Of a DNA stretch of 64,000 bases, positions 1 to 40,146 are shown piece after piece. Made by a program: the position numbers and the translations under genes. Every line of letters begins with the position of its first letter. Position 1 is the first letter of the stretch. The notes under the pieces were generated by a model. That model had not been told where the DNA came from. It saw nothing but the letters and a program-made list of their open reading frames with translations, and did no database searches. The stretch is from NCBI GenBank assembly GCA_963669155.1, contig CAVLGW020000044.1, forward strand, positions 1 through 64,000, in the 5' to 3' direction. Origin of the DNA: Arbacia lixula. Lineage: Eukaryota > Echinodermata > Echinoidea > Arbacioida > Arbaciidae.

Positions 1-384
1 TATTTTCTATCCTTATCTATGGCACGCGGAAGGGGAAATAAATAATTATATATAAACATACAAATATATACAACAAACATGACTTCTTTGCATTTATATG
101 AGACATATATATATTTAAAATACCAAATATATACAATATACATATTATATATACATATATTTTATATATAAATACATAAATATATATTATATGTGGAAAT
201 ATATAAATGTTACATATATATACACATACATATATTTATGAAATAAAATTATATATTTGCAAAGCAAAATATATTCAACTTACAAAATATAAAACGTTAC
301 AATATATATTTAGTTGCAAAATATTGGAAGACACATATAAAATGCGCAAATATATTTATAACTAAAAAAATATATATTTATAAC

Positions 385-615
385 TCATTTGGCTTGCCAT
401 AGATATATATATCCGTCGGCTTCCCATATATGCGATGGCGTAAAAATATATAAAGTTTTCGCAATATATATGTTACGCTTCACTGAGCGATTAACGAGGA
501 ATAGTCTTTCTTCAAGATACTTGTACGCGCCTTCCCCGCCGCCGCCGAAGACCCTTTGCAGTTCGTGAGGAACAAGCACAGTCTGATCAAGGGCGGATTC
601 CAGGAGGTGTTTCAT
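385..615 (-). pseudogene. Open frame in the TIR that shares a motif with the HECT first exon
   Basis: Read on -, the TIR codes for a short open frame (first ATG at 615) that includes HELQRVFGGGGEG. HECT exon 1 has NELQRVFGRGRG at the equivalent place, and the DNA under it ('caaagggtcttcggc') is also shared, so this is homology and not a chance protein match. After the motif the frame continues with AYKYLEERLF and then runs into AT-rich sequence. In the right TIR the frame is broken by a stop and a small deletion. I read it as a remnant of HECT coding sequence captured in the TIR, or of a first exon that once lay in the terminus. Element 2 carries the same inner part at 40569-40750. Confidence 0.5.
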
Positions 616-1095
616 CAACTAGAATCGATTCAAATCTTGGGAACAATTAAAATGATGGATGGTGGAATCAATTCTAGCCTTAAATCGATTCGAAGACGCT
701 GTTTTAAACACATTTGAAGCTAAAATTGATTTCAATTAAATTATCATATCCTTGCATCAAGGCTGTGTAGGGATTCGTGCAATTCAACTGAACTGCGCAC
801 AACTGAGAGGGGCAGATCTGCGATGAACGTAAGTAAATGTCGCATTTTTTCGTGATATAATTCATTTAGTTTAGAAGAGATTGCATTTATCCGTGGAACA
901 TATTCCACTAGTGATTTGATTGAATTCTCACACGATGAATATTCGTGTCCAATAACAGTATTGTATTATTACGTCGCCCAAAGGACCGTTGTTGCATGAA
1001 AACTTGTACTCGGCTGGGCTTCAGTCCCACTCGTACTGTTCTGTGCAAACATGAATTACAACAGTGAAGACTTCACTTGGTCTCGATTAGCCCAA

Positions 1096-1127
1096 CGCCG
1101 GACCCCGCGTGTCCGCGGGGTCCGGCG
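1096..1127. other. Perfect GC-rich hairpin inside the left TIR
   Basis: Fourteen bases, cgccggaccccgcg, pair with their perfect inverse across a four-base loop, in otherwise AT-rich DNA. It sits between two direct copies of 'ggtctcgat'. The right TIR keeps the structure at 39028-39059 with a small change in the loop, and element 2 has it at 41231-41262. A role in binding the integrase or in transcript folding is possible but not shown. Confidence 0.7.
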
Positions 1128-1351
1128 CAGGGTTAGGTCTCGATCAGCTCATTGGCTGAGGGTATGCCTGATATTAACACTAAGCAGAAAGCTCTGAGGA
1201 AGGAGAAGAAACTCGAGCATTTTCAAACATCTTTATCATTTATGCATGACTATGCTATGGGAACTAGCGTGCTGATGAATGTGTCACTGTCAATGTCAAT
1301 GAGCAATGTGTTAATACTGTTATTTTTTGGTCTCTATCCCTAACTTAGTAT

Positions 1352-1388
1352 GAGGAACCCCATGCCAAAGCCAAGTGTGGGGTTCCTC
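1352..1388. other. Second hairpin in the left TIR
   Basis: gaggaacccca at 1352-1362 pairs with its inverse at 1378-1388 around a 15-base loop. It is also kept in the right TIR (about 38.79-38.83 kb) and in element 2 (41487-41523). Confidence 0.6.
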
Positions 1389-1469
1389 GTACTTCTTGGG
1401 ACGTAGGGCTATATAGTGTTCCATGCTCAGCACCAACAATACATTTAGCTGATGTCAACTTGCAGGAAA

Positions 1470-2117
1470 CAAACGCGTACAACAAAATCTTTCTAATATA
1501 ATCTGAATACACTCATTCTGCTTTTAATAGTTTTATGCTTTGCCTTCAGAACCAATGGTACAGTAGGCGTATACGAGATGAGACAATGATAACCACTGGT
1601 ACATGTATGGGAGTTGTGAGTGCTGAGATTGCATCTGGCTTCTATTCGGAGGGGGTGGGGGTCCAAAAATGTAATTATTTTGATTAAAAAATCCCGAGAT
1701 GGTTATTCAAGTGGTTATTCATGTCTATATAATTAACCTTGCTGATGCCACATACAACTTGTACAAGCATCAAGGCATTGCCAAGTGTGAAGCTGCTAAT
1801 TGCTGAACTTTGCTTACATTTAATGAACGTATTGTCCCTGTCAGCGCACAATACAGGCATTGCTCACATTGGACATGCACACTGCACAACAGTCTCCAGT
1901 CACTAGGCTACATGTATACCGTAGCCAGGTTTTGGAAAACCTGCTAAAATCCCCTCAAAATCCAGAGATTGCTATATGTTTGCTTTTAAATAGTCAGTTT
2001 CTAGTGCTATTATTGGGAGGGAAGTTCTATTCCAGTATCTTCTTTCTTTTCTTCAGATTTTGTGTGCTATCTACATGACTGTCCGACCACAACAGATTTC
2101 CTGCTTGGTTTTATACA
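1470..2117. other. Region between the left TIR and the integrase start
   Basis: No recognisable gene. A possible splice acceptor ('tgccttcag' ending about 1549) is followed by an open stretch to about 1686 on + that begins with codons for NQWYSRRIRDE; it could be a leader exon but resembles nothing I know. The stretch 1735-1793 is a relic of inverted homology with the right side (37718-37762). A pyrimidine tract ending 'cttcag' just before 2060 could be an acceptor for a 5' untranslated exon. Confidence 0.35.
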
Positions 2118-2935
2118 ATGGAGCGTATCAATTTCAACCTTGTGTGTTTGTGCATTTTGTTTATTTGTACTAATGCCATGCCACAATCATTTGGAAGACG
2201 GAGGTCCATAGATGATTTAGCCAATTTTATTGAAAGACTGAGAGGGTACGTTGGAGAAGTTGGAGGAATTATACACATCCCAGAAAACACTGATCTACTG
2301 TTTGAAGTAATTACCAGTGGAGAAGCATATCTACAAAGTTTGAATATATTAAATAATTGGATATATGAGCTCCTTCACACTGGACACCATAATGTATCTC
2401 ACGCTTTGTATGACGAATTATTGGAAATTCAGTCTGAACTTACACACATGGTGGCATTACTAGAACAAGCTGTGAGATGTACAGAATTGCGGGGTTCTGA
2501 AGGCTTCAATGTACCAGAGGATGATGTAGTCGGGCAAGTCAGGCCGGTTGGGAGACCATTTATCAACATTCCACGTGATCAAATAGAAGCCCTATGTGGA
2601 CTTGGATTTTCCTGGGTTAGGATTGCTAATGTTTTAGGTGTGTCCCCTCGAACTCTACGTAATAGGAGACACGAACTCCAAATGCCATTTGGACAAGACA
2701 CATATGACGCTTTAAGTGACGGGGAAGTTGACGTAATTGTTGAAGAGGTGCTGCAACTTTCTCCAAGAGCTGGACAATCCATGATTTTTGGGGCTTTCCG
2801 GCAAAGAAGGCTTCATATTCAAAGATATCGCATCAGGGAAAGCATAACTCGGGTTAATCCAGTGGCAACTGCACTACGGAGGAGGTACCGCATCCAAAGA
2901 CGGCAGTACAATGTTGGTCTTCCAAATGCTCTCTG
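2118..2935 (+). CDS. IS3/rve-like integrase, exon 1 (N-terminal region and helix-turn-helix)
   Basis: First coding exon of the transposase, residues 1-272 plus two bases of codon 273. It starts at an ATG, and the first 20 residues are unusually hydrophobic (VCLCILFIC), which looks like a signal or membrane segment and is odd for a nuclear enzyme; Met21 could be the true start. Residues 30-120 are helical and charged. Residues 156-185 (LGFSWVRIANVLGVSPRTL) form a clear helix-turn-helix of the resolvase/IS3 type, followed by a basic stretch (ALRRRYRIQRRQ) leading to the catalytic core. Without splicing the frame stops at 2939. The donor CTCTG|GTAAG at 2935/2936 leaves phase 2 and joins exon 2 so that the conserved Trp-His of the integrase core is created across the junction. 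An identical exon lies at 42253-43070. Confidence 0.85.
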
Positions 2936-3963: not shown

Positions 3964-4735
3964 GCATTTGGATGGGAACCACAAGTTAATTCATTGGAGG
4001 ATGGTGGTACATGGTGGCATCGATGGCTACTCCAGAACTGTTGTGTTTCTTCAATGTAATGCCGACAACCGGGCATCTACTGTCTTGGACTGCTTTATGG
4101 AAGCCACTAATATATATGGATTGCCATCACGAATCAGAATCGACTATGGAATGGAGAATGTTGATGTTGCACGATTCATGTTGCAACACAGGGGTTTAGA
4201 AAGAGGTAGTGTGATAGCTGGACGGTCAGTTCACAATCAGCGTATTGAGCGGTTGTGGAGAGATGTAAATGTAGCAGTACTAGACACATTTAGAAACATT
4301 TTTTTCTCCTTAGAACACTCGGGTTTATTAGACAGGGATTCAGAAGTCCATTTGTTTGCACTCCGTTATGTGTTTATGCCTCGTATAAATAGAGCATTAA
4401 GAGAATTTGTTAGCATGTGGAATAATCACGTTCTTCGCACAGAAAGGAGGTCCCCCCTTCAAATGTTTTATTCTGGAATGATCCATTCCAGCATTTACGA
4501 AGATGTGCACCAAGCAAATGTTAGTCTGTATGGGGTAGAAGAAGAAGGTCTTCCTGGAGATATTCAAACAAATAATAATGTTACTATACCATTAAGCCAG
4601 CTTGATGTAAGTGATGTACTATTGAATCAATTACATGAATCTGTTAATGTCCTTGAAAATGATGGTTACAGTGGTGTTAACATTTATACACATGTTTTGA
4701 ATATTGTTCAAGAATGTTTTGAAAATACCACGTAA
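3964..4735 (+). CDS. IS3/rve-like integrase, exon 2 (D-D-E catalytic core)
   Basis: Second coding exon; acceptor 'cccccaacag' ends at 3963 after a 1,028-bp intron. The joined protein is 529 aa. The core has the three acidic residues expected of the RNase H-fold integrase family: Asp276 in HLDGNHK, Asp333 in RIRIDYGMEN and Glu368 in NQRIERLWRD, with spacing D-56-D-34-E. Further conserved-looking segments are VHGGIDGYSR after the first Asp and the LFALRYVFMPRIN region. Such enzymes cut transposon ends and join them to target DNA with divalent metal. The family is found in fish and invertebrates as 'integrase core domain' proteins and is related to bacterial IS3 and retroviral integrases; IS3EU is a possible superfamily name. 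No stop or frameshift is seen, so it may be active. An open frame from 3938 is intron read-through and not the real start. An identical exon lies at 44099-44870. Confidence 0.9.
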
Positions 4736-7605: not shown

Positions 7606-7931
7606 GAAAGAAAATGGATAAAGAGAACAGTGGTTTTCCCTGTGGAAAAATTGGTGATGCCGAAAAAATGCCTCTGCCGGGTATCAAACCCAGGCCCCCA
7701 GGTTTGAACGCCGATGCCTTAACCACTAGATCGGGGTCGGGGTCACCTTAGCCACTAACCCGTCTCTGTAGTCTAGTGGTTAAGGCACCGGCGTTCAAAG
7801 CTGGGGGCCCGGGTTCGATTCCCGGCAGAGACATTTTTTCGGCATCACCAATTTCTCCAAAGGGTAGATAGCTCTGGGGAACCTTGATTTAAGCTACGCC
7901 TACCATTGTTCTCTTCATCCATTTCTTTCAC
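7606..7931. repeat. Head-to-head pair of tRNA-derived SINEs
   Basis: Two copies of one SINE face each other, one on - (about 7606-7738) and one on + (about 7762-7931). Each has a tRNA-like head followed by the same body ('ttttttcggcatcaccaatt') and then 'ggataaagagaac' or its variant 'ggatgaagagaac'. The + copy has a complete cloverleaf; the - copy is degenerate in the acceptor stem. A transcript through both would fold into a long hairpin. Copy 2: 47741-48066. Confidence 0.75.
7762..7832 (+). tRNA. tRNA-Glu(UUC)-like head of a SINE
   Basis: A 71-base cloverleaf can be drawn. The acceptor stem is GTCTCTG with CAGAGAC (7 bp), the A box is TAGTCTAGTGG, the anticodon stem CCGGC pairs with GCTGG (one G-U) around the loop GTTCAAA, giving anticodon TTC (Glu). 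The T arm is CCGGG-TTCGATT-CCCGG with B box GGTTCGATTCC. It carries the internal RNA polymerase III promoter and has no encoded CCA. Because it continues into a SINE body shared with the neighbouring inverted copy, I regard it as a SINE promoter rather than a working tRNA gene. Copy 2: 47897-47967. Confidence 0.6.
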
Positions 7932-11744: not shown

Positions 11745-11983
11745 TTAAACCTGACCAAAGCCAGGGCCATTTTTGATGGCAAAAACCATCCTGGCAGTGA
11801 ACTCCTCACTGGATGTGCACGTTCTCGGCACATCCAGTGAGAGTGCACAGGTCGATGAAATGGGCATCGACCTGCCATGGAACCCCATGGTTGGCTGCGG
11901 GTTAAAGCCACCCATGGGGATCCTGCAGGCCCCTGAAAAAAACAACAGGACGTCGGCTAATTCCAGGCCATCGGTCAAAGGAT
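11745..11983 (-). CDS. HECT ligase exon 12 (catalytic cysteine lobe)
   Basis: Last exon, residues 643-721, the C-lobe of the HECT domain. It contains LADVLLFFSGACRIPMGGF, then NPQPTMGF, then PISSTCALSLDVP with the catalytic Cys688 (codon TGT at 11849-11847), then EEFTARMVFAIKNGPGFGQV and a TAA stop. Spacing from the Cys to the end (33 residues) is normal for HECT enzymes. A perfect 14-bp inverted repeat lies in the codons just after the Cys. Copy 2: 51880-52118. Confidence 0.9.
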
Positions 11984-14900
11984 CTACAGAAACAAACAGA
12001 AATCATCAAAATTTAGACTTTTCACATTATTTAAGCTCACCAGTAATCGGGAGCCAACACTACAAAATTAAGTTATGTTCAAGTGTTTGAGCACTGCTAG
12101 ACAATCCCAAATATAACTTTACCAGCATTTACGGATGTTGATAGGGCAGTTAGTACCGCAGTATTAAATGGGTACGAACTACAGCAATTGACTGCCAAGC
12201 ATTTGATAAATACATGCCTCTGCTTTTTTGGTTACCTCCATGTGGTTGACATTGATAATATTCTCAGAAAACTTGTATGTTTGGTTGGCAATGAAACATT
12301 GAATTCCTATGTGAAATTAAACATTCAGGGATCAAGTCTGAAGTAAATCTGTTGAATGGTTCTAAAGATATTGCATGAAAAAAAGGACAACCCCAAAACA
12401 TAATGCATCCTTTGTGGCAGAGGCATAAAAAGTCATGAAATCTCGCAGCAATCTTACTTGCATTTTTGCTTTTCAGAATGATGAAATGTGGAGTCTTGAG
12501 GGGGCATTAGACGCCCCCCCCCCCCCCCCATTTTTACCCCTCTCTGATTATGGTTAACCTAAACCTTTGCAAACACTGAATGATATCTATCAAATAGGGT
12601 TAAAATTGAACCTTGCATCTTGGGGCTGTACATATTAATGCATCTTACAAGAAAATTTCACGTATCCATGGATATGTTACCTTGGGTGCCGCACTTCTCG
12701 AGAAACTCAATGAAAAACATCGTTGTGGCCTCCTCCTCCTCCCTTGCATTGCTCCCCTCTTCACTGTACTTGATATTGAAAAGCTCAAATATGGTGTTCG
12801 CATCAACTTTCTTCGTGGCCGCAAACATAGTTTGGACACATACTGAAATCAAGAAAGAATGAATTTGTATTTATTAAACTGAAATAGCTAGTCAAGTCAG
12901 TAAATTCTTGAGAGAATCTCAAAATAATGGTGCAATCAATAAGAAATGAAAATGATTTTGTTTACTTGTAAAAAGCACGGAGAGTGGAAGAAGATATGAG
13001 AACTTTCCCCAAAATAATAGAACTGGAAACTGACTTAAAAGCCAAATTATAGCACTTCATAGAATTTGAGTAGTTCTGTGCTTTTTCATCATGTAATTGT
13101 CCTCTTCTTAAAAAGGTATGTGGATTTTAACCGAATTTAATTGCGATCATCTACTGGTAAATGGAGAGGGGACTTAATGCTCTCATTAGAGAAATATGCG
13201 CGCAGATGACTGGTATGCCTCTGCCTTTCTTACGCACACACTGATGTATTTCCACAATCTCTAAGTAAATACAATGCTCACAAAACCCAAGTTATCAATT
13301 AAATATGGGTAGTGATATGTTAGGCATTTGACCTTGACATATGACCTTTGGCCTGTCTGACCAAAAATCAAATCAATTATTTGTCTTGTTGTACATTAAT
13401 CATTTAAACCAATTTGATGCAATTTAGTCTTCTACTTCCGGATAAGTGTGTATATTAGAGGGACATACAACTGACCTTTTGTGGCACGTTATCGTTTATA
13501 GAGGGCGCTGCAATCGACGGCTTTAGGCGTGGAGCGTGGCTCGGTTCGTTAAACATTCGGACTCTCCGTATAACTTCGGCAAACAAGCACACAATTGTAA
13601 TAATACTGGTGACTTTTCATGTGATATGTGTTCATTTTGTGTACATGCATCAAAGCGTGTCAAAGACTGTTGCTAATAGCACACACACATGAGATCAACG
13701 CTAACACAGTTTTGTAGATCTTGAGGGTGGGGTAGTGCCGGCACTGAGGTGGGGTTGATAAGACCTACACCGAACGCCGTCGATTGCAGCGCCCTCTATA
13801 AACGATATCGTGCCACAAAAGCTCAGTTGTACTCAGTTGTAAGTATGATAATTGAGGATTTGACCTTCATCTGTGATCTTTGATCTGTATGGCTTAAAAT
13901 CTATTAAGTTTATTGTCATATTTTATCATTAGACAATGTTTGAGGAAATTTGGTTCATTATTTCATGAGTTAACACATAAATGATATCAGGACTGATGTA
14001 CAGACAAACATACCAGTACTGCAATCCATCAACTTCATGCATGCACACAAATGTTCCTAGTACCCCATTAGACATGTGGGTCTCTTGTTTTTAAGTATCG
14101 GGACATTTTACCTGGGTGAAAACGGGCGAATTGCCTTATCCCGAAGAAGTCCATGCCCTTGATGAGGGCCGCAAGCTCACCATGTTGACGGTTGATGACA
14201 TAGTGCAGACATGCTGCTTTCACTATCTACAGACGGGGGGGTGGGGAAGCAACAATAGACAGCTGACTCTAATGCCTCATTAATTCTCCATATTTCCATA
14301 GGAGAATTAACCTGAAACATCCATATATACTCATTAAATGCAGAAGTTCCAAGTATTCATTACATTAAATATCCAATCAAATCTTCAATGATTAAAACAA
14401 TGATGCATAGTGATTATATTGATAAAGACATTAATATACACTAACATGAAAAACTAAAAACACTGACCAAAACACAAAACACACATGTCACTAGGTTTCC
14501 AGTAATAAATGAGGTTACGTCAAAGTCTGTTCCAACACCCAAAAAAGTTGGCCTCGTATTTTTTCATTTGATGTCAACAAACTTTTATGTAAATATCTCA
14601 AAAGTTATTGAAGTTCTTCTGAAAGGATGTTGGTAATTACAAATGGGGTTTCTTTGGCAATTGCCTGTTTCATGCACCCAGGAAGTGCATTTTGCTCATC
14701 TTCACTTCAAGATGACCATTCATTCTAGGAGTGTATTTGTATAAAACAGAAACAGTACTGGGGTATTCATATCACACCACTGTTATCTTTGTATAATACT
14801 GTAGTCAGTTGGAATCGGATCATTGAATTTGTATTCATTGTGTAAAGTGTGATTTTTTTAATGTCCTAAGCCTTTGATTTCACCTGAACTTTACACAGTT

Positions 14901-17900
14901 CATTGTTTCATAAATCACATACAGGTAATGAGATTGAATCAAAGCCACTGAATGCTGATCAAGATATTGCGTAAACGAATTTGGTGCAGACAGATGAACA
15001 GACATACAGGCAACCCATAAATATAAGGCCTACAGCCACTCTGGGGTGAAAACATCAAATTTGAACATTCAAAGATACAATTTTAAATTCTTCTTTTGCC
15101 CTACCCCAAACACATTACCTCATATTGAGTGCAATGAGACCCTACCAGCACGGGCAACTGTCATGAACAAATTTTATTCTGCATTTATTAGATAGGGTAT
15201 TCGTTTTGCAAATGGAAGAAAATATTGTATAAGAACATCCCTCCCCAAAATAGAACTGGCGACTGACTTTGAGCAGACTTTACCAATTGCCAGATTTTGA
15301 GTAGGTTTTGGATGATAAATCACCCACCTCGTGTTTGTTGCCCATATTGACAAGCCTCCTCCAGCCTACATCTGTGAGCACAGTGTGGTCCTCCTCGTCC
15401 AGGACCTCCTCAAGAGCAATCTCTGTGGGTGCATCCAGTATCTGTTCTTGACAAAAGATAGAATATGACTAGTTTATCCTTTCACCACTTGTGTTCTCCA
15501 CATAAAGATGGAAATTATGTAACTATGCCTTCTGAAATAGACAGTTTACATTTTAAACGCACCAACTATAGTCTATATTCATGATTATATCGTTCCTCTA
15601 TGCTCCCATTGAATGCATGCACTGTGGAGTATACTGGTGCGAACCATAGCCATGCCATAATTTTTTAATGAAATATGAATGAATATGAACATTGATTATC
15701 TATTTTGCATAAATTATCATTACAAACAAATTGAGGGTTTGTTTTCTCAAAGTTATATGCAGCCTTGCTCTTTGCATGTGCCTTGACAGCCATGCAAAAT
15801 TTTTGTTTTGATGAGATCTTCCATGGTAGAGATATGAGGGAGGGGTCAAAATGATCCCTTCCCCTCAGTCAAAATTTGCTCTCAAAAAGCCCAGTCAGAA
15901 TAGGGTTAAGCCAACCCATAAGTACCATTTGAATATCCTCTCCCTTTATGCCCATCATGACAATTCTACTCTTTGAAGAAGATAAAACTTACCAATTTCC
16001 CATTGTGGCCCCTTCCCAATTTGTGTTTAACAAACATTATTTTTTATATGTTGAGAAAACTTGACTGTATTTCATGTTTTTTTGCCTCATCCCCAAACTT
16101 GATAGATATCCTTCAAGGTATTGCATCATCTTCAATTTTTCTGCTGGTTTTATTTCTATTACTGTTTTGTTGGCTTTCTATTGACTACATTGTTTTTGTT
16201 CTCATGAATGATACCCAAGCATATCATTATTGAGTACATAAAGAAACTATATACATTACCCTCTGGATGACATCCCTCGTTGCAGCCTCTGGTATGAGAG
16301 CCACTGGGAGATCGAGATTAGTGGGGATGCTTCCTTCCACAATCAGACTTCCCAAGATAGGATTAAGGAAGTCTAGCCCCCTTCGCCCATGCAGCACTGC
16401 AGCCCCCAAAATCCTTCCCACAGTCTCCATTTGCCCAGAGGCAAGTGCTGCAGTACTTTGGGCAGGCACCATGAGTCCTGGAATTAGCAATGAAACTTAT
16501 CATTTAATATTTGCTATTTGAATAATGCATGCAATTTGTGCCATTATTTCAGACTCTCTAATGGCGCAGTAGGAAGAACAACATTTGTGCATCATGAGAG
16601 CTGGGTTTGAAATTGTTTGATAACCTATGGCCTTGGACCTCATCTGCCAAAAAGTTGTCTAGGGAACATTGTACACATAACCATGTCTGTACAAAGTTGC
16701 ACCCTTCACATGGTTAGTTTACTTTGACCACAAAATCGATTACACACGGATGACAAACAGACAGATGGACAGACAGATTGACAACCCTAAAAAGAAAAAC
16801 ACTTGAAAACATGTTCTCCTCCAGCCAGCTGGTGTCAAACTTCTGTATAAAATGAGCAATAGAGAAATACCAGGATAATTAGCTATGGAAGTACTCGAGA
16901 TGTATGAGCTGTATGGCTCATTGTTATATAATGCCAAAGAGCATGATATATAGAGGTAGGTGAAGATATCATATGTCATTCTTACCCTCGCTGCCAGTGA
17001 ACAGGCCGGAGTCCCTAACTTGTGGAATCACCAGGGAGAAAAGTTCCCGGGTTAGACCTCCAGTGTCTACCCCTGCCTCTGCCACGAACCTCACAGACAT
17101 GCTGCGTTCTGGCTTGATGGAGCTACCTTCATTGAAATATTTAGATATAATTGAATTAAGTTGATTTCATCTGCTAATAAGCAAAAATGGATGAAGGAAT
17201 GAGACATCATAACATTTCCACTTTTTTTTTACTTCTTCAAACATGTCACATTGTGGTGTGGTTAAACAGAAAATCTGTTTTAAACCAGAGCAATTTGACT
17301 GCCACACAGTCGATAAATATGCCTCCGCCTCTTTGCTAGCTCTATTTAGATTCTCAGAAAATGTGTATGTTTGGTGGGCAATGTACCATTGAATTCCTAT
17401 GTGAAATTTTTATTCATTTATTAAGTCTTCTTTAAACAGGGTAGCACCATCAGTGAGCTTGGCACTGTTCTCCCCGGAGGCCCTGTGTACAAATAACACA
17501 TATGATAGATACTGTAGTAACATGAACATAGATTACACAAACAAATGCTGTATGCCAAAATACAACATAGATCAACTGATGTGGAACGTAACAAAAGGAG
17601 AAGGTGGACTGATGCTTCCACATGCATCACACAAGTGAAACCTTGTAAATTGGTGACTAAATATTATGTGAAATGAAAATATTATATTCTGTTATCCATG
17701 TTTAGGCAAGTTTGGCAATGTTCATCGACCTTTGACCTCGTATATCTTTGACTTCCCATCTAACCAGTCTGTCTAAATCCATCCTTGTACAGTGTATCAA
17801 GTTTGTTTAAAATTAGCCAATTTTGGGTGAAGTTCATTGACCTTTGACCTTTCAGGAATTTTTACCACAACCTGTCACCAGTCTACCCCCAAGATTTGGA

Positions 17901-20900: not shown

Positions 20901-23900
20901 CTCCTGGTCTGATGATGATGCTCCAAACATAATCTGAAGTGCCAGCTAAACAGTTGAAAATTACATGGGACATGTATCATAAATGTTTAGCTCTCTAGAT
21001 TCTGCATAGATGATAAGTTGTAATTCTTCCAGAAATCCATGCTATTTGTTCTTTATTCATTTTGTTTGCACTTAATTCTTAACCGCTTTTTCCTGGTAGA
21101 CCGTTTTAATCATTTTTGAGCCATTCACAAATGTAGACAATACACTCAACTTGACCACTGAATGCACCAAGACCCCTTCCTATGCTCTAGCTGCAATATT
21201 TCATTTCAAAATGAGGTTGGCTCTTTCATTCTGGCAAGGCCCACTAAGCCACAGGACTACTATGCCAATTATGGATTGAGAAATGACATCACAGTTACAA
21301 TGGATGGGGACAGATGGCAATATAATGAACCTATAATAGAAGAGACCTTGTTTTCATGAACAATCACATGTACATGTACCATGATAACTTTCCCAGTTTT
21401 TATCAATTAGACAGCAATCATGTATTCTATACTATTGTGCACATTTACAGTACTGCAGAAGTCTTTAAATGTTTAAATATCAGCACTTCACAAATTCATA
21501 CCATTAACAAAGGGGCAGTGGACCTAATGTGCAAATCTCCCTGTCCAGCCAGGTGCTTCACTGCAGCCCCAGTCCACGTGTGACCATCTGTCACTACCGG
21601 CACGCTGACCCGGCGCCGATTGATTTTCACAAATTCAAACCTGAAGGAATATTTTTTAAAAGACAATATCAATACAATAAAGAGGACCAACATAGAGGGA
21701 TATAGCTCCTTAGACAAAGCCAAAGACAAAATGATCATAATAAACAGGTTTGTGAACCTGAAATTATTTCTACATCGCTAGGGAAGCATACATATTATGA
21801 GTGGTATTCCGAAATTCCTCCTAAGTCCCCAAGTACAGAGGTGCCTAGGAGGGCCAAAATTGGTATTCTAGAATGTCCTCCCAGAACACTCTTAATGCAA
21901 ATTAGCGAGGGTTTGACCACACACAAGTGTGCAGTTCCTAACCAATGGTGAGTAGAATTCTATTAATGAAAAGCCACAATCAAGAAATCTAATCAGGACT
22001 TTCCCGTAAGCTTTCTTCCTACATCTGTGGATGTGCTAATAACATAGGTGGGCGTACATCAATGATGTAAACAATTTAAAGGCAAATATGATTGCTACTT
22101 GGTTTTTCGCATGTGTTATGAATGGCTAGGACAGGGGGTGGCTCTACTTAATGTTCTCCTAAATCTCATGCATGCATTCAGGAATGCCAATCTTCATAAC
22201 TTTCTCATTTAGATAAGTTTCAAAAGAGTTAAGATACAACTCGGGATGGGAGTAAGGAGGAAGGTTATGAAAGAAAGCATTTTTATAATGCATGGTGTTA
22301 CCCTATGATTCACAAGAGATTATTCAGTGAAACTCGAACAAACCTGTCCGGTCTTTCATTTAATGAAATATTGTTCTGTTCTTTACTGAGCCTGCATACA
22401 GTATTTGGGTTTTATGTGTTTTTTCCACTTCATTGTAAGCAGCACGACTCTCATACAATCTGCTCTTCATGAAATAGATGACAGCCGTTGAATAAACAAA
22501 TATTTAACAGGACACAATTAAACCACATCCCTTTGGTTACTGCAGTTCCATATGAAATGTTGATAACCTATTCTGGACAACGGTTTACAAAGCAATAAAA
22601 TCTAACTCTATTGGGTAGCATGTTAAAAGAAATGATTGTCTATTCTTATGTTAAAGTTGGTGACAGTTATAAATAAACAAATATCGTATGAAGTTTAAAA
22701 AATTAAGTGATTAAAATTCAATCTCAAAATATATACATTTACATGTATATGTATATGAGGATATGAGCATGTAAAGTCACTTGATATAAATGTGTTGCTA
22801 TTTGGTTATGAAATACAAATTCATTGAGAGAGACCTGTCATATGTCATCATTGCACCACCTTTGGTGATATTTGGTCATATATTTCACAATTTAGTGCAT
22901 AAACAGCGTCATTTCAAAATTTGACCTTGACCTGACACCTATCTGACCCACATTATAATCACTTTATTGTCCTGTCATATGTCATGATTGTACAAAGTTT
23001 AATTAAATGTAGTGTATTACTCCTAAACTCATCACAAAAATCACATACATCAGGATTTGACCTTGACCTGTGACCCAAAAGTCATGGGGGAATCATATGT
23101 GCCAACATTTTTGTGCTTCATGCTTTCCTTTCCTGGCATCCCCCTCCCTGATATAGGAAGACTCCAAATAGCCTGGCCTTATTCAGGTTAATGTATAAAA
23201 TAGGTCTTATGAATGTACATGTATGGTGAGAGAGTACATTACCTTGGCCGTGGTATGTGACTTGTCAACCTTAAAAACACAGTCTCAAGGAGGGTGGTTA
23301 CATCCTCCTCACTCATATGCTTGTTGAGGCTAACTGAGGACACCACCCGCCCCTCAGCTTCGGCATCCTCTTTATTACCAGTTACGGTTGTGTTGACATC
23401 AAGGAGCACGACATCTTTCATAAATGGGGCTGAAAAGAGAACAATTACTTCACATCATTAATAATCATCGACACCTCTGTTTTATAGTTGAATGAAACCT
23501 TTAATGAGATTTCTCCAGAGGGGCATTTATCTTTCATCCAAAAAAAAGATTTGGTGGCTGCATGGGCACACCTTCCACACAAAGGGAGCAGGGTCCTATT
23601 ACTTTGACAAATTTCTGAGATTTTGTCAGTGACTGTTGCAGTATGGTTTGGTGATTAATTTAAAGTTTAATAATCCTCATGACACCCGGCACCCACGTCA
23701 ATCCATTTTCTTTCTGGCACCTACTGATTTGGGGAGACAGGAATAAAGAGAGGTGAAACATGGTGGTGATTAAAGCTGCCTAGAAGGAAAAACCACCTGT
23801 GAATAGTCCAGTTGAATTCCAACGAATTGAAATGGGATTTGATGTACCAGTGGGACCACTTATTTTGACCTGATGAATGGACCAGTTGGAAAATCAGATT

Positions 23901-26179
23901 AAAAATCAAGTCTGAAGTTTAATCCAACAATAATCCTGTCCTATGATTACTCTAACTTACCAGCTATGACTACATGCCAGCTAGAATTTAACCCAAGCAA
24001 GGGACGGTTCTCTCCTAAGCCAAATTTAATCTAACACTCCTCATATTTCAGCTACTTTTGACTGTTATACACATGTCCATAAAGTGCATGCATATAGTGC
24101 AGTTGTATATCAAACAAAAAGATGGTTAGTAAATGCAAATCGAGTAGTATTTCATTATTGCCCTGGTTCTTTGGAGTGAAATTCACTTTTGAGTGTTTAT
24201 ACACCTGTAAACATTTATTGAGATATAAGTTGTCACATCAAATACATTGGATCAAATTAAATGGTTGATTCATAAGTCCAAAATAATGCCAGTTTTATAA
24301 CTATGAATTTTCATGAGCACCCCAGGCAGCAATATGGGTGTCAACTGGAACAACTTAAACATCACATGGGTGAATTAGTGCTACTGTAGCTTAATAATAA
24401 TAATAATAATAATAATGATAATAATAATAATGATAATAATAATAGTAATAATAATACATCAAATTTATATGGCGCACTTTCCATCTTAACTAGATGCTCA
24501 AGGCTCTTCAGAGCAAATTAAAGAGAGAGAAAAAAATACAATACAGGTATGAACTTTTTTGTCAAAAAGCACCGTTATACAGGTATGTCTTTAGGTTGCC
24601 CTTGAAGGTGGTTACTGACGTCAGGGTTTTCAAACTCTGTGGAAGAGAATTCCACAGGGTTGGCCCTGCATGAGCAAAGGCCCGATCTCTTTGAAACCGG
24701 AACTTACAAAAGACTGGATGTGGAGGATCTTTAAAAGGTTTGTGGTGGTTGGTAGTTGTGAATTAAAGATTTATTGTAACTGGGGGAAGTTCCGTTGACA
24801 ATATGAAAGACTAAAAGAAGTATTTTAAAGGCAAGGCGTTCCCTCAGGGGCCACCAATGAAGACTTCAAGCTTGAATTCATAGTACATGTAAGTAGTTGG
24901 GGTTACCCGTAGGATATACTTAGGACTAGGTTTAATTAGGATTAGGTCTTATCAGTTCATATAGGAATATAATTCATTTTTTTTAAACTGGTGTTCTCAA
25001 CTGAGACCATTAAGCATTAACTGGAACCATGGACCCTAGTGTCCATGCTGGAACCAATTGATTCCTACTGGTTCTAGTTGATTTCAACTGGAACTAAATA
25101 CAACAAAAAAAGTAAGCCCCCCCCCCCCCCCCCCCCAGCAAAATAGCATAACTTTTTACCGAACAGGTTTCGGGCAAAATAATTTGTCAGGATTGTTACT
25201 TAAGATATTTACTAACTTCTGTGTGAAAATCACATTAATCCAATTATTCATGCAAGAGTGGGGAAATTTTAAAGGCAAAAATGTGACTTTTCAAAAGTCA
25301 CAAGGGTAATTTGGGGATTCTGTCATTTTTGCATTTTTGATCAATTACATTTCTGGTGCATAAATTGTGTCCTTTCATTGTTTATCATCAATCTCTCGAT
25401 GCACGAACAAGTAACACCTATCCCGACACTTAACCCATTGTTCTGGATGAGTGAGCACTTTTAAACAATTAATACTCATCCGTCTTTTTGTTTGAAACGT
25501 TTAAAAACCTGTTATTTTTGTGAAATAATAAAACTGGATATTTTGACAAGGATGTAACATGACAATTCAAGAAGTCATTTTCATATCATGGTTGAGTGAA
25601 TACACTTTAAAAATCGCACAAGAGATGCCAAACTGTACTATTAAAACCGCAAAAATAGTTATCCTTGTGTCTTGTGACTTTTGAAAAAGTGTAATTTTTG
25701 CCCACTCATGCATGACTAATTGGATTAATCTTTAATGCATCTTTACAATTATAATGGGTGGCTGTGGCGAAAAAAAATCCCTAGCGACTGATAAAAACCA
25801 GGAACAAACCTGAGGCTGGACGCCTGCTGCTGTAGGGGCTGAAGCTCTGTCTATGAGTTTGTCGGCCAGCTCTGCCCAGGCCTCGGCCACGGCCGAAGAC
25901 CCTTTGTAACTCATTCACATGGTTAACGCGTGGAGTACCGGTACTACTAGTCTGGCCGAGGCCTCCCGCAAGGCGAGGCCGAGGGGTGCCGGTGGGATCA
26001 GTCGATGACGATGACGCTGTCGCTGACCGTGACGTCGAGCCGCCACCACCTAGGCCTACGCCGCCCTCATTTAATCCGCGGCCATGGCTGTTGGTGAAGG
26101 TCCTCAGCAGCGAGGACAACGTCCGAACACTTGTTTGCAGCTCCTGCAGTATTTCCTCGGGTTGGTCGCCAGTAGCCAT
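11745..26179 (-). CDS. HECT-type E3 ubiquitin ligase, 12 exons, 721 aa (G2E3-like)
   Basis: Exons on -, 5' to 3': 26179-25810, 23429-23243, 21640-21502, 19950-19703, 19324-19220, 18414-18287, 17126-16986, 16477-16260, 15441-15328, 14226-14112, 12842-12681, 11983-11745. All introns are GT-AG and the phases agree at every junction, giving 2,166 bp with one ATG and one stop. Residues 1-123 are low-complexity and rich in Gly/Ser/Arg. Residues 124-232 hold MKDVVLLD and the GAAVKHLAGQGDL region, which I recall in G2E3-like proteins of fish and invertebrates. A Thr/Pro/Ala-rich linker follows, then an acidic stretch, then a full-length HECT domain (about 374-721). HECT enzymes accept ubiquitin from an E2 onto a catalytic cysteine, here Cys688 in SSTCALSLD, and pass it to a substrate. 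The protein ends GFGQV, near the usual HECT C-terminus. Its substrate is unknown. Being inside a transposon, it is cargo or an accessory protein. Confidence 0.88.
13467..13830. mobile_element. MITE in a HECT intron
   Basis: Inverted arms of about 55 bp: the left arm begins ACAACTGACCTTTTGTGGCAC and the right arm ends with the inverse (GTGCCACAAAAGCTCAGTTGT). Both contain 'tttatagagggcgctgcaatcgac' or its inverse. The middle is non-coding. It lies in the intron between exons 11 and 10. Copy 2: 53602-53965. Confidence 0.8.
17700..18238. repeat. Dispersed repeat with 'gacctttgacct' motifs in a HECT intron
   Basis: Contains several 'gacctttgacct' motifs and 'accaagtttgaagcaaatctggtt', and ends 'taacaggaaaagtgattactaggtctctgccgaactttgttcaggcgagac' in pieces shared with 10090-10146. 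It lies between exons 7 and 6 and stops about 50 bp short of exon 6. The open frames it contains are not real genes. Copy 2: 57835-58373. Confidence 0.55.
18556..18604. repeat. Poly-C / A-rich / poly-G foldback tract
   Basis: A run of about 14 C, then A-rich sequence, then about 14 G, able to fold into a C-G hairpin, with more C-rich sequence after it. It lies in the intron between exons 6 and 5. Length in this kind of tract is often wrong in assemblies. Copy 2: 58691-58739. Confidence 0.6.
19703..19950 (-). CDS. HECT ligase exon 4 (mucin-like Thr/Ser/Pro/Ala repeats)
   Basis: Codes for residues 233-314. After an acidic start (DVSDDELPDIN) come about seven imperfect six-residue repeats of the type ATTSPA, encoded by an 18-bp DNA repeat ('gctacaacatccccagct'). 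It is a flexible linker between the N-terminal region and the HECT domain, and its length is likely to vary between copies. The + strand of the same DNA is also open but is only the shadow of the repeat. Copy 2: 59838-60085, with the same repeat number. Confidence 0.8.
21793..23242. other. Intron sequence between HECT exons 3 and 2
   Basis: No gene seen. Around 22850-23090 there are two copies of a 'tttgaccttgacctg' repeat with 'gtcatatgtcat', again of the invertebrate dispersed type. The rest is unique AT-rich sequence. Copy 2: 61928-63377. Confidence 0.5.
23430..25809. other. First intron of the HECT gene
   Basis: Contains a (TAA)n tract (24391-24456) leading into a dispersed repeat that begins 'catcaaatttatatggcgcac' and extends to about 24880, then a C20 run at 25117-25136. 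A short self-similar motif ('cttttgaaaagtcac' type) occurs in both orientations near 25290 and 25680. No coding sequence seen. Confidence 0.5.
24391..24880. repeat. (TAA)n microsatellite and attached dispersed repeat
   Basis: About 22 trinucleotides with a few interruptions, followed by 'atatggcgcactttccatc' and 'gatgctcaaggctcttcagagc', a sequence type I recall from multicopy repeats of echinoderms and other marine invertebrates. It also contains 'gaattccacagggttggccc'. No intact ORF. Confidence 0.55.
25810..26179 (-). CDS. HECT ligase exon 1 (start exon, Gly/Ser/Arg-rich)
   Basis: Starts MATGDQPEEILQELQTSVRT, a predicted helix, followed by Gly- and Ser-rich tracts and NELQRVFGRGRGLGRAG. 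The donor CCTCAG|GTTTG leaves phase 1, and GCC (Ala) is completed by exon 2. GC content is clearly above that of the surrounding introns. The ELQRVFG motif also lies in the element's TIRs at about 555. The intron after it is long (25809-23430). Confidence 0.8.
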
Positions 26180-26291: not shown

Positions 26292-26786
26292 TGTTGTATA
26301 GTCATTTGTCATTACTCAACTCCCACCAATTGTGGAGAGGAAGTCATTACCCTTTCCCCCCATCCACTGTTTGATTTATACCAGTCTCTGTTTTGTCTCT
26401 CCTGCTCAGACCACATTATAAGTTTTCTAAACATCCTTTCACCCAAACCACACTTGACCCACATTCCATCTCTACAAACACTTCCAAGTACTTTCTTTTT
26501 GTCTCTTGGTCAAGCCACCAGGCAGAGGCCACACCCCTAGCTTCTCCTGTATCCTACATGTAAATGCTACCCACAAAAGTTAGACCACACCCCCAAATCC
26601 TGTTGTATCTCACGTGGCTCTGGTTGAGGAGAAAGCTTCGTGAAGGGAGAAGAGTGGAAACTACCAAGCGAAGACTTGTATTTTACATTATCTGTGTCTT
26701 GTGAATCTGAACTATGTGATTTGTTGTTTGCACATAATAAATGCATGCTCTCATGTTACTTAACTCTAATTTTGCAAGTCTCATGC
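26292..26786. promoter_or_regulatory. Promoter-like segment upstream of the HECT gene, duplicated 6 kb away
   Basis: This 495-bp segment starts 113 bp upstream of the HECT ATG. On - it has TATAAATC at 26380-26373, about 190 bp before the ATG, an E-box CACGTG at 26611-26616 and two CACCC-type boxes (about 26530 and 26590), an arrangement suited to a polymerase II promoter firing into the ligase gene. A copy about 95% identical lies at 32376-32817 in the same direction, lacking some 55 bp. An alternative reading is that the two are LTRs: they start TGTTGTA, there is an AATAAA on + at 26737, and a purine run lies just before the second copy. Confidence 0.5.
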
Positions 26787-28699: not shown

Positions 28700-30110
28700 A
28701 GCACCAAATTTGGCACGCGTGTTCAAAATCATATTTGGGACAATATTAGATATAGAGGCATCTCAAAATATTTCCAGGGGCGCCTGGGGGCAGCCCCCAA
28801 AGTGGTCCAGGGGCCCTAATATGACTTCTTTTCAAAAGCGCAGGGCCCGACTTGTAAAAAAACTTGATAGGAATCATCCTTAGGTAAAAGGGACCTTACC
28901 TTGTTCAAATTTGTGGTTATATGTGGCAAGGGGGAAGGTGGATAGGCCCCCAAACGCCCCTGGGGGAATTTTTCTCTTATTTTGCGACATTTTCTCAATA
29001 ATAAATAACTGGATTGTAACCAAACTCTATAGGAATCATCCTTAGGTAAAAGGGACCCATGGGGTAACTTCCTCTTATTTTTTTACTTTCTCAGAAGAAT
29101 AAATAACTGGATTTTAACCAAACTTGATCATCCTAAGGTAATAGGGACCATTAGTTGTTGAACTTGGGGTACACAAGGGGCAAAGGGTGGGGGTGGGGGT
29201 AGCCCCCAAAACGCCCTAGGAGGAAAGAAACTTTAATTTTTTTTAAATACTTTTTTTTCCAGAAGAAATAACTGGAAACAGGTATAAGGGACCTTAAAGA
29301 TTGTCAGTCCCTTTTGCAAGCTTAAAATTTGAAATCATCTATCACGATCGTAAATTGAAGAAAGTGTGATTCAAGACCATTTCTAAGAATATAGCATGTT
29401 GAAGCTTTTTGTATATGTAAAAAATTTCAGCCGTTAAATTTCAAACCGACTTTTTTCGTACCACGAAAAAAGTACATGTATTAGTCTTTGTTACAGTATC
29501 TATGTGGTTATTATGCGTGTGTGAAATCCTAATTTTATGAGTAACTACCAAACTTTGGAGATGATTCCTTCTGAAGAACAATTTTTTTCATAATGCGTTT
29601 TATAATTTAATTAACAGATTAATCAATAAAGCAGATATTTCAACACAAGCTGCTAAGAACCTGGGGTAAAGACTATTAATCATACGTTGTTTACGTGCAT
29701 TATTTGAATTTTACACTACATATCAGTTTCAAATTGTGAATATAGAGCTTGCTGACACTTCTCTATATGTTTTGCCAATGTTTCGACGGTTTTGTGGTGA
29801 TCTGAAAAAGGGACTGGCTGTCTTTAAGCTGTTAGAATGGGGAAAACATAAGTGGCAAGGAACCAGGTGCAGCCCCCCCCCCCCCACCAAAGAAATTCCC
29901 CCAGTTCCTCTTATTTTTTTACTTTTTCTGAAGAATACATAATAAATCAATAATGATAGGGAGCTAAGTTATTAAAGTGATGGTACGCAAGTGGCAAGGA
30001 GGGGGGGGGGGGGGGGGGGCAAATGCCCCATGGGGCAAATTCCACTTATTTTGTTACTTTTTCTCAAAGGTAGATGACTGTCTTTTAACCAAGTTGAAAG
30101 AAGTCACCTC
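28700..30110. repeat. Degenerate tandem repeat with 'gaatcatccttaggtaaaaggga' units
   Basis: Several units combine 'ggaatcatccttaggtaaa', 'gggacc', a G-rich 'gcaaggggg' tract, 'gcccccaaacgcccc' and 'ttttctcagaagaataaataactgg'. Spacing is irregular, about 90-170 bp, and units decay towards 30110. Non-coding. Confidence 0.55.
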
Positions 30111-32375: not shown

Positions 32376-32817
32376 TGTTGTAGAGTAGTCATTTGTCATT
32401 ACCCCACTCCCACCATTTGTGGAGAGGAAGTAATTATCCCCCCCCCCCCCCCATCCACTGTTTGATTTATACCAGTCTCTGTTTTGTCTCTCCTGCTCAG
32501 ACCACATTATAAGTTTTCTAAACATCCTTTCACCCAAACCACACTTGACCCACATTCCATCTCTACAAACACTTCCAAGTACTTTCTTTTTTTCTCTTGG
32601 TCAAGCCACCAGGCAGAGGCCACACCCCTAGCTTCTCCCGTATTCTACAACTACCCACAAAAGTTAGACCACACCCCCAAATCCTGTTGTATCTCACGTG
32701 GCTCTGGTTGAGGAGAAAGCATCTGTGTCTTGTGAATCTGAACTATGCGATTTGTTGTTTGCACATAATAAACGCATACTCTCATCATGCTTAACTCTAA
32801 TTTTACAAGTCTCATGC
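32376..32817. repeat. Second copy of the HECT upstream segment
   Basis: Direct repeat of 26292-26786 with few substitutions, a C16 expansion near 32435 and a deletion of about 55 bp corresponding to 26637-26692. The TATA motif, E-box and CACCC boxes are all kept. 'aaacaaagggga' lies directly before it. No HECT-like first exon follows on - (below 32376), so if it is a promoter it now drives nothing I can recognise. Confidence 0.7.

Positions 32818-33283: not shown

Positions 33284-33341
<58 letters not shown>

Positions 33342-33455: not shown

Positions 33456-33509
<54 letters not shown>
33284..33509. repeat. Two (CT)n microsatellites
   Basis: Pure CT runs at 33284-33336 and 33460-33509 separated by pyrimidine-rich sequence. 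The serine/leucine open frame across them is an artefact of the repeat. Confidence 0.85.
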
Positions 33510-33513
<4 letters not shown>

Positions 33514-35280: not shown

Positions 35281-35307
35281 AAGCTTAACCCTGTAAAACT
35301 ACAGGAG

Positions 35308-35378
35308 CTAGACAGAGAGTTCCCTCTGGAGCCAGCTGATGGTGTCATCATAGAGCTCCACTAGTCCATGAATGCCTT
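35308..35378 (-). pseudogene. Possible terminal exon or exon relic
   Basis: Read on -, codons give KCPQGIHGLVELYDDTISWL and then QRELSV before a TAG stop. The composition is protein-like, unlike the surroundings, but there is a stop just upstream and no good acceptor. It may be the last exon or a relic of a second gene on this strand. I do not recognise the family. Confidence 0.25.
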
Positions 35379-37371: not shown

Positions 37372-37438
37372 CTCTCTCCAGGCTCATCAGCTGTTCATTT
37401 TCGTAACGCTGCAACCTCATAAGAAACTGCCCCTTCAC
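37372..37438 (-). CDS. Candidate small exon of an unknown gene
   Basis: 67 bp on - between 'ttttacaattcag' and the donor GAGAG|GTAGCG, coding for VKGQFLMRLQRYENEQLMSL and ER. Only one of the three frames is open. Charged and helix-forming. It ends in phase 1, which does not fit the 36656 acceptor, so it cannot be joined directly to that exon. Confidence 0.25.
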
Positions 37439-37717
37439 CTGAATTGTAAAATGACATGGATCAAAATCAAGTTTACAGAGGTCATGCACATCAGATACCT
37501 TATTCTGAATACGATATTGCAACAGACAAAATTATTGAAAACCGTAATTTATTGTAATAGTAGACTGCTTTTTGTACGTTTTGACAATAAGCAGAAATTT
37601 CAATTAATATCAAAGCTGAAAATGCACCCCCTCATAATACATTTGCATAGTTTGATTTGCTAAAACAAGAGGTTTCTGAGTTAACTTCATCATACCCTGC
37701 CGCTGGATCTTTCAGGC

Positions 37718-37762
37718 TTCACACTTGGTAAAGCCTAGCAGCTCGTGGCATCAGCAAGGTTT
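37718..37762 (-). repeat. Relic of inner TIR homology
   Basis: On - it reads 'aaccttgctgatgccac' and 'ccaagtgtgaag', as does the left side at 1735-1793 on +. The TIRs therefore once reached further in, or a shared segment was copied; the right side has since gained about 700 bp between this point and the TIR, including a foldback. Confidence 0.5.
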
Positions 37763-38139
37763 ACTGTGCCCAGCCCACTCAGGCAGTGAGCCCGCTGCAT
37801 AGCGCAGAGCTTTGGAACAACATAATCGAGATTAAGTTTGTTGTTTTCAACAAAACTTCACCTTGGATTCAACTAGTACTACCCAGATTCATAGAGGATA
37901 CATACACACTGTACTTGAACTCAACCATGGTTCGTTTGAAGATTATTTTAATCCAGGTTGATTTTTTTTTAATTTTTTACAAACTAAGGTGATTCAGAAT
38001 TACACCACATCACCTGCGATGATATAAAGATTTAAGTTCCTGCACATGCGCCAGTTCTCATATTACAATGTGTATTACGTTCTTGGAACATAGACGTTGT
38101 TTGTTACATCATAGAAAGAGATGTGAATAGGAAATAAGT

Positions 38140-38289
38140 ACTAATACTGGCTATAGATCGAGACTTTATTATGAACTAGGACTTTATTATGAACTTTGGA
38201 CGTACCCCCGTGAGAGGAGCCAGAGTCAGAGACTGATTTTTCGGTCTATGTAATAGCCTGCTTCGTTTCGATCTATAGCCAGTATTAGT
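38140..38289. repeat. Small foldback near the right TIR
   Basis: Perfect 22-bp arms (actaatactggctatagatcga and its inverse) bound 150 bp. The interior has a duplicated 'actttattatgaact'. Non-coding; probably a small MITE inserted into the element. Confidence 0.7.
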
Positions 38290-38460
38290 AGACGAGAAGC
38301 TTTGTTGTTTTTTGTCAATTTGGGGGCAAATTTTAATTCAAGATAGTCAAGTCTGGGCAACACTGTACCCTACAGACTAATAATATTAATCTGGGGAGCT
38401 AGACCACGGTGGCGCTAAGTGCATCCATATAGTACTTTGGCACTTATTTTATGAATTTGA

Positions 38461-38510
38461 ACCCTAAACCTAACCCTGACCCCAACCCTAACCCTGACTC
38501 TAACCCTAGA
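38461..38510. repeat. Degenerate telomere-like repeat
   Basis: Imperfect CCCTAA-type units ('accctaaacctaaccctgac', then 'cccaaccctaaccctgactc'). Only about eight units and degenerate, so an interstitial repeat and not a telomere. Confidence 0.5.
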
Positions 38511-38708
38511 CAACTTCTTTGCAGTTGAATTCTTCCAAAAAGTGATTTCTAGGTCTGCATTAGCACCTGTTTACTTTAGCTAGGCCCTAGCCTAGCCGGC
38601 CTAGCCCCGGGACTGCTACGTGGCTAGCCAAAATGTAATTTCTATTAAAAATAAAGAATGCCCCGAATGAGACGTGTTATTTGTGTCTTTTTTAATATTT
38701 AATATTTA

Positions 38709-40146
38709 TTTCCTGCAAGTCAACATCAGCTAAATGTATTGTTGGTGCTGAGCATGGAGAACATCATAGCCCTACGAGGTACGACTACGAGGAACCCCAC
38801 ACCTGGCTTTGCCTTTGGCATGGGGTTCCTCATGCCATGGACATGGTAACTTAAGGATAGAGACCAAAAAATAACACATTGACATTGACACATTCATCAG
38901 CACGCTTTTTAGTCATGCATAGAGATGTTTGAAAATGCTCGAGTTTCTTCTCCTTCCTCAGAGCTTTCTGCTTAGTGTTAATATCAGGCATACCCTCAGC
39001 CAATGAGCTGATCGAGACCTAACCCTACGCCGGACCCCACGGACACGCGGGGTCCGGCGTTGGGCTAATCGAGACCAAGTGAAGTCTTGCCTGTTGTACT
39101 TCATCTTTGCACAGAACAGTACGAGTGGGACTGAAGCCCAGCCGAGTACAAGTTTTCATGCAACAACGGTCCTTCGGGCGACGTAATAATACAATGCTAT
39201 TATTGGACACGAATATTCATCGTATGAGAATTCAATCGAATCACTAGTGGAAGATGTTCCACGGATAAATGCAATCTCTTCTAAACTAAATGAATCATAT
39301 CACGAAAAAATGCGACATTTACTTACGTTCATCGCAGATCTGCCCCTCACAGTTGAGTTACGTTGCACGAATCCCTACACAGCCTTGATGCAAGGATATG
39401 ATAATTTATCGAAATCAAATTTAGCTTAAAATGTGTTTAATGAAACAGCGTCTTCGAATCGATTTAAGGCTAGAATTGATTCCATCATCCATCATTTAAA
39501 TTGTTCCCAAGATTTGAATTGATTCTAGTTGATGAAACACCTCCTGGAATCTGCCCTTGCTTGTTCCTCACGAATTGTAAAGGGTCTTCGGCGGCGGGTA
39601 GGGCGCGTGCAAACATCTTGAGGAAAGACTATTCCTCGTTAATCGCTCAGTGAAGCGTAACATATATATTGCGAAAAACTTTATATATTTTTACGTCGTA
39701 TATATGGGAAGCTGATTGTATATATGGGAAGCCGACGTATATATATATGTCAAGCCGAGTGAGTTATAAATATATTTTGTGTCATAAATATATTTGCACA
39801 TTTTATATATTCTGTGTCTTCCAATATTTTGTAACTAAATATATATTGTAACGTTTTATATTTTGTAAGTTAATATATTTTTAGTTTGAATATATTTTGC
39901 TTTGCAAATATATAATTTTATTTCATAAATATATGTATGTGTATATATATGTAACATTTATATATTTCCACATATGATATATATTTATGTATTTATATAT
40001 AAGATATATGTATATATAATATGTATATTGTATATATTTGGTATCTTAAATATATATATGTCTCATATAAATGCATAGAAGTCATGTTTGTTGTATATAT
40101 TGGTATGTTTATATATAATTATTTATTTCCCCTTCCGCGTGCCATA
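38709..40146 (-). repeat. Right terminal inverted repeat of element 1
   Basis: Inverted partner of 18-1469. It shares the two hairpins (38.8 kb and 39028-39059), the ELQRVFG-coding stretch near 39575 and the AT-rich outer block. Compared with the left TIR it has lost about 10 bases in the open frame near 39.56 kb and has a stop codon in the middle of the ELQRVFG motif, so that frame is broken here. A short 'tatatatgggaag' motif is duplicated near 39700-39725. It ends with CCGCGTGCCATA at 40146, the exact inverse of the left end. Confidence 0.85.

Follow-up and report, generated by a model that had tools for sequence, protein, structure and literature searches.

A giant IS3EU-like transposon of the sea urchin Arbacia lixula, with a HECT ubiquitin ligase as its probable standing component

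The window analysed here comprises bases 1-64,000 of scaffold C66 (80,302 nt; CAVLGW020000044.1) of the sea urchin Arbacia lixula, and the genome assembly searched contains 606,990,701 nt in 590 contigs. Among 59 stretches of the assembly that were compared, the beginning of C66 alone matches the start of the window. The window carries a 40-kb DNA transposon followed by the beginning of a second lap of the same element. Within the transposon, a transposase gene and a gene for a predicted HECT ubiquitin ligase face each other. The relation between these two genes, and the scar that joins the two laps, are described below.

The element and its two genes

The element starts at position 18 with TATGGCACGC and ends at position 40,146 with GCGTGCCATA. 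Its terminal inverted repeats (TIRs) match each other in a single blastn alignment, at 86.7% identity counting insertions and deletions. The target-site duplication (TSD) is 6 bp long, with CTTATC at 12-17 and again at scaffold positions 80,282-80,287. A first-pass annotation of the bare sequence had placed the element at 18-40,146 with TIRs of 1.45 kb. The TIRs are confirmed by blastn and the end coordinate is exact, but that observation understated the locus, because the 40,135-nt period, the autointegration junction and the TSD were missed.

12-17, plus strand: left TSD, CTTATC (right copy at C66:80282-80287, beyond the window)
18-40146, plus strand: complete element, 40,129 bp, TATGG..CCATA, with a collinear second copy on C4
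18-1473, plus strand: left TIR, 1,456 nt, from blastn
2118-2935, plus strand: transposase exon 1, from the spliced open reading frame
3964-4735, plus strand: transposase exon 2, catalytic core with D276, D333 and E368, from Pfam and alignment
11745-26179, minus strand: predicted HECT ubiquitin ligase gene, 12 exons, 721 aa
26179-25810, 23429-23243, 21640-21502, 19950-19703, minus strand: HECT exons 1-4
19324-19220, 18414-18287, 17126-16986, 16477-16260, minus strand: HECT exons 5-8
15441-15328, 14226-14112, 12842-12681, 11983-11745, minus strand: HECT exons 9-12
38705-40146, minus strand: right TIR, 1,442 nt, from blastn

The two transposase exons encode 529 aa without an internal stop, and the intron between them is bounded by GT..AG. 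Pfam assigns the protein to rva_4 (E=4e-81), with rve under the cut-off. In an alignment of 16 sequences, the window transposase and 15 of 120 listed relatives (the best 120 of 933), D276 and E368 are present in all 16 and D333 in 15. These results bear out the spliced D-D-E integrase without stops that had been read from the sequence beforehand. The few named relatives among the 120 come from fishes, corals and other cnidarians, echinoderms, a hemichordate, an annelid and Glomeromycota. A hydrophobic, signal-peptide-like stretch opens the protein (2118-2190), as it does in some fish relatives (P0010, P0018). In viral contigs, none of 12 pattern matches was confirmed as a relative of the transposase. 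Among 36 pattern matches in genome contigs, three encode a transposase relative, all on contigs of 3-4 kb from one sponge-symbiont bin; these contigs are probably sponge DNA, and no HECT domain was found on them at E 0.01.

The HECT gene lies on the minus strand and is convergent with the transposase gene. Its open reading frame has a single terminal stop, the splice phases match, and all 11 introns are bounded by GT..AG; the exon and residue counts are identical to those of the intact 12-exon, 721-aa gene proposed at first reading. For seven of the 11 splice junctions (5/6 to 11/12), support comes from relatives at C14:2722009-2727053 that lack introns and contain stops, and whose matches cross these junctions uninterrupted. 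Exon 7 has a weak acceptor by consensus. A candidate exon at 14356-14180 was dropped, because joining 15328 to 14226 fits the relatives. The match to the Pfam HECT profile spans positions 11-304 of 306 (E=5e-12), including the N-lobe and the C-lobe, and the protein also matches E6AP, NEDD4 and ITCH chains. A putative catalytic cysteine of the C-lobe is found in STC, which is paired with HTC of E6AP in a second, weak part of that match and is retained in the second family described below. With both lobes and this cysteine present, the 721-aa protein is predicted to be a HECT E3 ubiquitin ligase.

Two protein searches, in each of which about 8,000 candidates were scored (the first was dominated by a low-complexity tract and gave one match), identified at least three relatives of the HECT protein: Strongylocentrotus purpuratus LOC753173, Lytechinus pictus LOC135154678 and Patiria miniata LOC119733122. 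Fishes may have many similar HECT genes as well. LOC753173 (P0001), one source name of which is embryonic histone H3, has the sequence of a HECT relative that is truncated and bears a short histone-like tail, and is perhaps a faulty gene model. The AlphaFold model of LOC135154678 (P0122) has a mean predicted local distance difference test score (pLDDT) of 35. None of five pattern matches in viral contigs was confirmed as a HECT relative.

Transposase-HECT pairs in the genome

Further copies of the window element (family 1) were sought with its first 1,000 nt as the query, which gave 79 matches among the best 40 of 213 candidates scored. At least 12 further copies could be followed to both ends; ten measure 2.0-2.3 kb, one 6.9 kb and one 39,838 bp. 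The 11 shorter copies all have a perfect 6-bp TSD. The 6.9-kb copy (C17:12784412-12791275; 6,864 bp) combines family-1 TIRs and a perfect TSD with an interior unmatched to the window element. The 39,838-bp copy, on C4, is collinear with the window element and has the transposase and HECT genes at the same places, which answers the question, raised at first reading, of whether other copies also carry the HECT gene there. Relative to C66, the C4 transposase is open, with four silent changes and one replacement, and HECT exons 2-12 are preserved together with their splice sites, likewise with four silent changes and one replacement. Against a neutral replacement share of 72-77%, one replacement in five gives P of 0.012-0.025 for each gene, and two in ten for the transposase and HECT exons 2-12 together (exon 1 excluded) gives P of about 0.0003-0.001.

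A second family (family 2) is represented by five near-identical transposase loci. Their transposases are 45-57% identical to that of the window (57% in exon 2, about 46% in exon 1) and have the same exon split. On C21, the family-2 element measures 29,175 bp, has the ends TATGGCACGCC..CCATA, the TSD GGTCAA and TIRs of about 0.85-1.07 kb with roughly 70-80% identity, and carries a HECT gene downstream of the transposase in convergent orientation. The C14 locus is arranged likewise, and the two are 96-98% alike over their main matches. In a genome-wide HECT search, the best 62 of 142 candidates were scored, and it is to these that the following statements on HECT genes refer. A HECT gene faces the transposase at at least four of the five family-2 loci (C21, C14, C10 and C4), while C41, the fifth, is not among the scored candidates. 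A third pair is situated on C17, where a transposase of 41-43% identity (2160078-2163910, minus strand) is faced by HECT stretches of 47-54% (2147560-2153323, plus strand). The check for HECT genes in the same place and orientation in other elements, proposed with the first-pass annotation, is answered by convergent pairs at four of five family-2 loci and on C17.

Family-2 HECT is 35-65% identical to window HECT by stretch. Six of its match ends fall within about 3 residues of exon ends of the window gene, and introns are absent at the exon 6/7 and 9/10 positions. Its identity to L. pictus LOC135154678, annotated just as an uncharacterized protein, is 74-96% by stretch, with 61-67% in a low-complexity stretch and 49% in the last exon, so that most coding stretches of the L. 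pictus protein are near family-2 HECT. This suggests that some uncharacterized sea-urchin "host" HECT genes are transposon genes, a relative of LOC135154678 being an example. The remaining HECT matches are the relatives at C14:2722009-2727053, one 28% relative on C16 and a short extra match at C10:6535259. The C14 relatives, several intronless and stop-bearing copies in a row with 79-89% identity to window HECT, are apparently retrocopies that were later tandemly repeated; such copies suggest past expression of a spliced HECT mRNA in the germ line. Outside these loci, no HECT gene that is both close and intron-bearing was found. Since 62 of 142 candidates were scored, the HECT list is a lower bound, and a close host gene may have escaped it.

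The ends of both families, TATGG..CCATA, fit the TAYGG..CCRTA (TA..TA) pattern of IS3EU elements. The TSDs are of the expected 6 bp at C66 (CTTATC), in the 11 shorter family-1 copies and in family 2 (GGTCAA), the 40-kb C4 copy, which has a gap beside it, being the exception. The transposon is thus classified as a giant IS3EU-like cut-and-paste element on the basis of its ends, TSDs and family resemblance (rva_4). We put the probability that the HECT E3 ligase is a standing component of this giant IS3EU-like lineage at roughly 85%, judging from sequence comparison. The ligase looks like a lineage-long partner, not a chance passenger, because the convergent pair occurs in both families and on C17, and no close host gene is among the candidates scored. 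The arrangement finds its best explanation in a single ancient capture of an intron-bearing HECT gene, retained ever since, because the same pair and order are found although the transposases share about half of their residues, and because HECT intron positions are shared. The two genes have diverged to a similar extent (45-57% against 35-65%), as co-inheritance predicts; the agreement of the integrase and HECT histories, which had been named as a check, is supported to this degree, by percentage identities. The earlier suggestion that the ligase may be a working part of the element is likewise favoured by this conservation.

Several observations weigh against a lasting partnership. The GC content at third codon positions (GC3) is 0.54 in HECT and 0.33 in the transposase, as in a captured host gene, a difference that fits a host origin of HECT. 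In the C4 copy, HECT exon 1 is disrupted: a patch of it is replaced, its length is changed and its reading frame meets stops, so that a full-length ligase from this copy is doubtful. The same copy has no TSD (flanks AGCTGT/CTCATA), and a run of N ends 16 nt to its left. Between C66 and C4, the whole HECT coding sequence has not changed more slowly than its introns (19/2,161 against 72/12,248 substitutions, P=0.14), and 15 of 20 coding changes are concentrated in exon 1. The C21 HECT gene has a frame change inside one exon. Among the 62 scored candidates, no HECT gene is near the transposase relatives on C33, at C7:9861330 and at other loci. The pattern that had been named in advance as a refutation, transposase units without HECT together with a HECT orthologue fixed in the host, was not seen as such, but the units on C33 and at C7:9861330 do lack a listed HECT gene.

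It is unlikely that HECT is a passenger, that is, a host gene caught between the TIRs and carried without helping the element. The host-like GC3, the dispersed repeats in its introns that are also present elsewhere in the genome, and the disrupted exon 1 of the C4 copy would all be expected of a passenger. A passenger would not readily account for a position and orientation shared by two families, with about half of the transposase residues in common, and again by a third locus, nor for the few protein-changing differences between C66 and C4; a close intron-bearing host gene is missing from the scored candidates.

Autointegration junction and second lap

Positions x and x+40,135 of the window are identical, with no mismatch, from 439 to 23,865, and the identity continues to scaffold position 80,281. 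Only the outer left segment differs between the two laps.

433-438, plus strand: internal target CGATGG (6 bp), inside the left TIR
40147-40573, plus strand: autointegration junction, CCATCG, the reverse complement of 18-432 and CGATGG, then base 439 onward
40574-64000, plus strand: second lap, identical to 439-23865; on the scaffold the identity extends as far as 80281

The inverted stretch in the junction is the first 415 nt of the element, bracketed by inverted copies of CGATGG. A circle of 40,135 nt assembled from these parts gives 439-64,000 exactly. Both element ends are joined to one internal 6-bp site, and this target is duplicated in inverted orientation, as in an inversion product; the junction at 40,147-40,573 is accordingly read from its sequence as the inversion form of autointegration. 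The two element ends would each strike a different strand of a single internal target, at positions 6 bp apart, and the target would be duplicated in inverted orientation when the gaps are repaired. Without recourse to the host insertion, the junction establishes where both ends lie and that the stagger is 6 bp. An inversion circle is known for Sleeping Beauty and piggyBac (PMC3952818), whose suicidal autointegration likewise yields a circular inversion product that contains both ends and the target duplications. As described there, those were small engineered elements in cell culture with TA or TTAA targets, whereas a 6-bp target and a natural 40-kb element are involved here.

The second lap opens with the outer 415 nt in inverted orientation, which rules out a plain head-to-tail tandem of two whole elements. 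An artefact of the assembly or the library might be suspected in an AT-rich repeat on an unplaced scaffold, but it is very improbable: each of the two joins coincides exactly with a terminal base of the element, and they carry a 6-bp inverted duplication, the size of the TSDs of 11 other copies, which is not expected of a chimera. More serious, though with somewhat less than an even chance, is the possibility that the 80-kb scaffold represents a true chromosomal tandem, in which an autointegration circle recombined into a chromosomal copy. The order flank-element-junction-element-flank with a single TSD pair is precisely the product expected of such an event. An identical path would be obtained, however, from free-circle reads and single-insertion reads in one assembly graph, and the host flank on the scaffold amounts to merely 17 and 21 nt. 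The period of 40,135 nt is the value that a free circular molecule would give, and the 100% identity of the laps points to a very recent event or a single molecule. When joined with a single CTTATC, the flanks resemble a dispersed repeat with 54 sites at 1-3 mismatches (two with one mismatch, none exact), and the reversed control gave no site. In a search for a single-lap version, BLAST of the first 400 nt of 20 sampled scaffolds (32.5-50 kb) returned only a shared repeat in one of them.

Cut-and-paste DNA transposons are expected to be small, because size lowers efficiency and raises self-integration (PMC3952818; PMC6431247), and larger transposons are more prone to autointegration (PMC3952818). 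The scar indicates that the 40-kb element bears this cost. This cut-and-paste element of 40 kb shows signs of recent activity, and it unites a self-integration scar that can be read precisely with a ubiquitin ligase kept over a long time. Either in the sequenced animal or not long before it, the transposase would have excised the 40-kb unit as a whole, and the unit would have attacked itself. The ligase may have been made in the same cells and may ubiquitinate a protein that limits or tunes transposition, whether that protein comes from the host or is the transposase. Possible roles are the removal of a restriction factor, the tuning of the transposase, and help with chromatin or repair; a ligase that would shift the autointegration balance is an attractive idea. 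The odds are about even, in our estimate, that a giant IS3EU-like lineage of animals is defined by the transposase-HECT pair, with the ligase as a dedicated transposition or anti-defence factor that lets units of 29-40 kb excise and spread in spite of autointegration and silencing by the host. The question of whether transposons use ubiquitin enzymes of their own for transposase turnover, repair or host defence is thereby made testable.

Known relatives and other features

IS3EU elements with such ends and TSDs are already known, as are fungal members that carry alpha-kinase and TET genes (PMC10045372; PMC12730594). The window element shares TA..TA termini, usually 6-bp TSDs and an IS3/IS481-related DDE transposase with the IS3EU/GingerRoot superfamily as outlined in PMC10045372. 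It differs in its 40-kb length, its 1.45-kb TIRs and its 12-exon HECT gene; the term HECT does not occur in that paper. The fungal IS3EU elements with TET/JBP and alpha-kinase genes, to the extent excerpted from PMC12730594, are similar in their TAYGG..CCRTA ends and 6-bp TSDs and in having extra genes in a conserved order, one of them opposite in orientation to the transposase. Where the fungi have a kinase and a dioxygenase as extra genes, the animal described here has a HECT ligase. The Burro elements of planarians, in the portion of PMC6431247 drawn on, are likewise giant and have extra domains related to ubiquitin and apoptosis, but they are long terminal repeat (LTR) retrotransposons with RING/MATH/BIR motifs and without a HECT gene, in contrast to the present DNA transposon. 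No literature that joins IS3EU with HECT was found in open-access text, nor any on IS3EU in sea urchins, and none of the titles listed concerned a transposon-borne HECT gene; a Repbase entry with this gene may exist.

A six-frame Pfam scan of the 4.7-11.7 and 26.2-38.7 kb regions found no other domain gene above the cut-off, the other strand of the HECT introns lying outside the scan; its sole line is DUF3915 (E=0.051). The CpG observed/expected ratio is about 1.1 in both TIRs (18-1473 and 38705-40146) and 0.40-0.58 in the other parts measured, as if the TIRs had escaped loss through methylation. A tRNA-like match at 7762-7833 on the plus strand (Rfam, 62 bits; ARAGORN, tRNA-SeC with anticodon tca) is situated beside a 93-nt inverted repeat (7638-7730/7772-7864) and is perhaps a tRNA-derived repeat. 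The blocks 26292-26786, just upstream of the HECT start, and 32379-32817, 6 kb further, are repeated, with 83-99% identity. Several segments within the HECT introns and the 26-38 kb region (25092-25729, 17337-17789, 29584-29782 and others) match dispersed repeats found in other sampled stretches of the genome.

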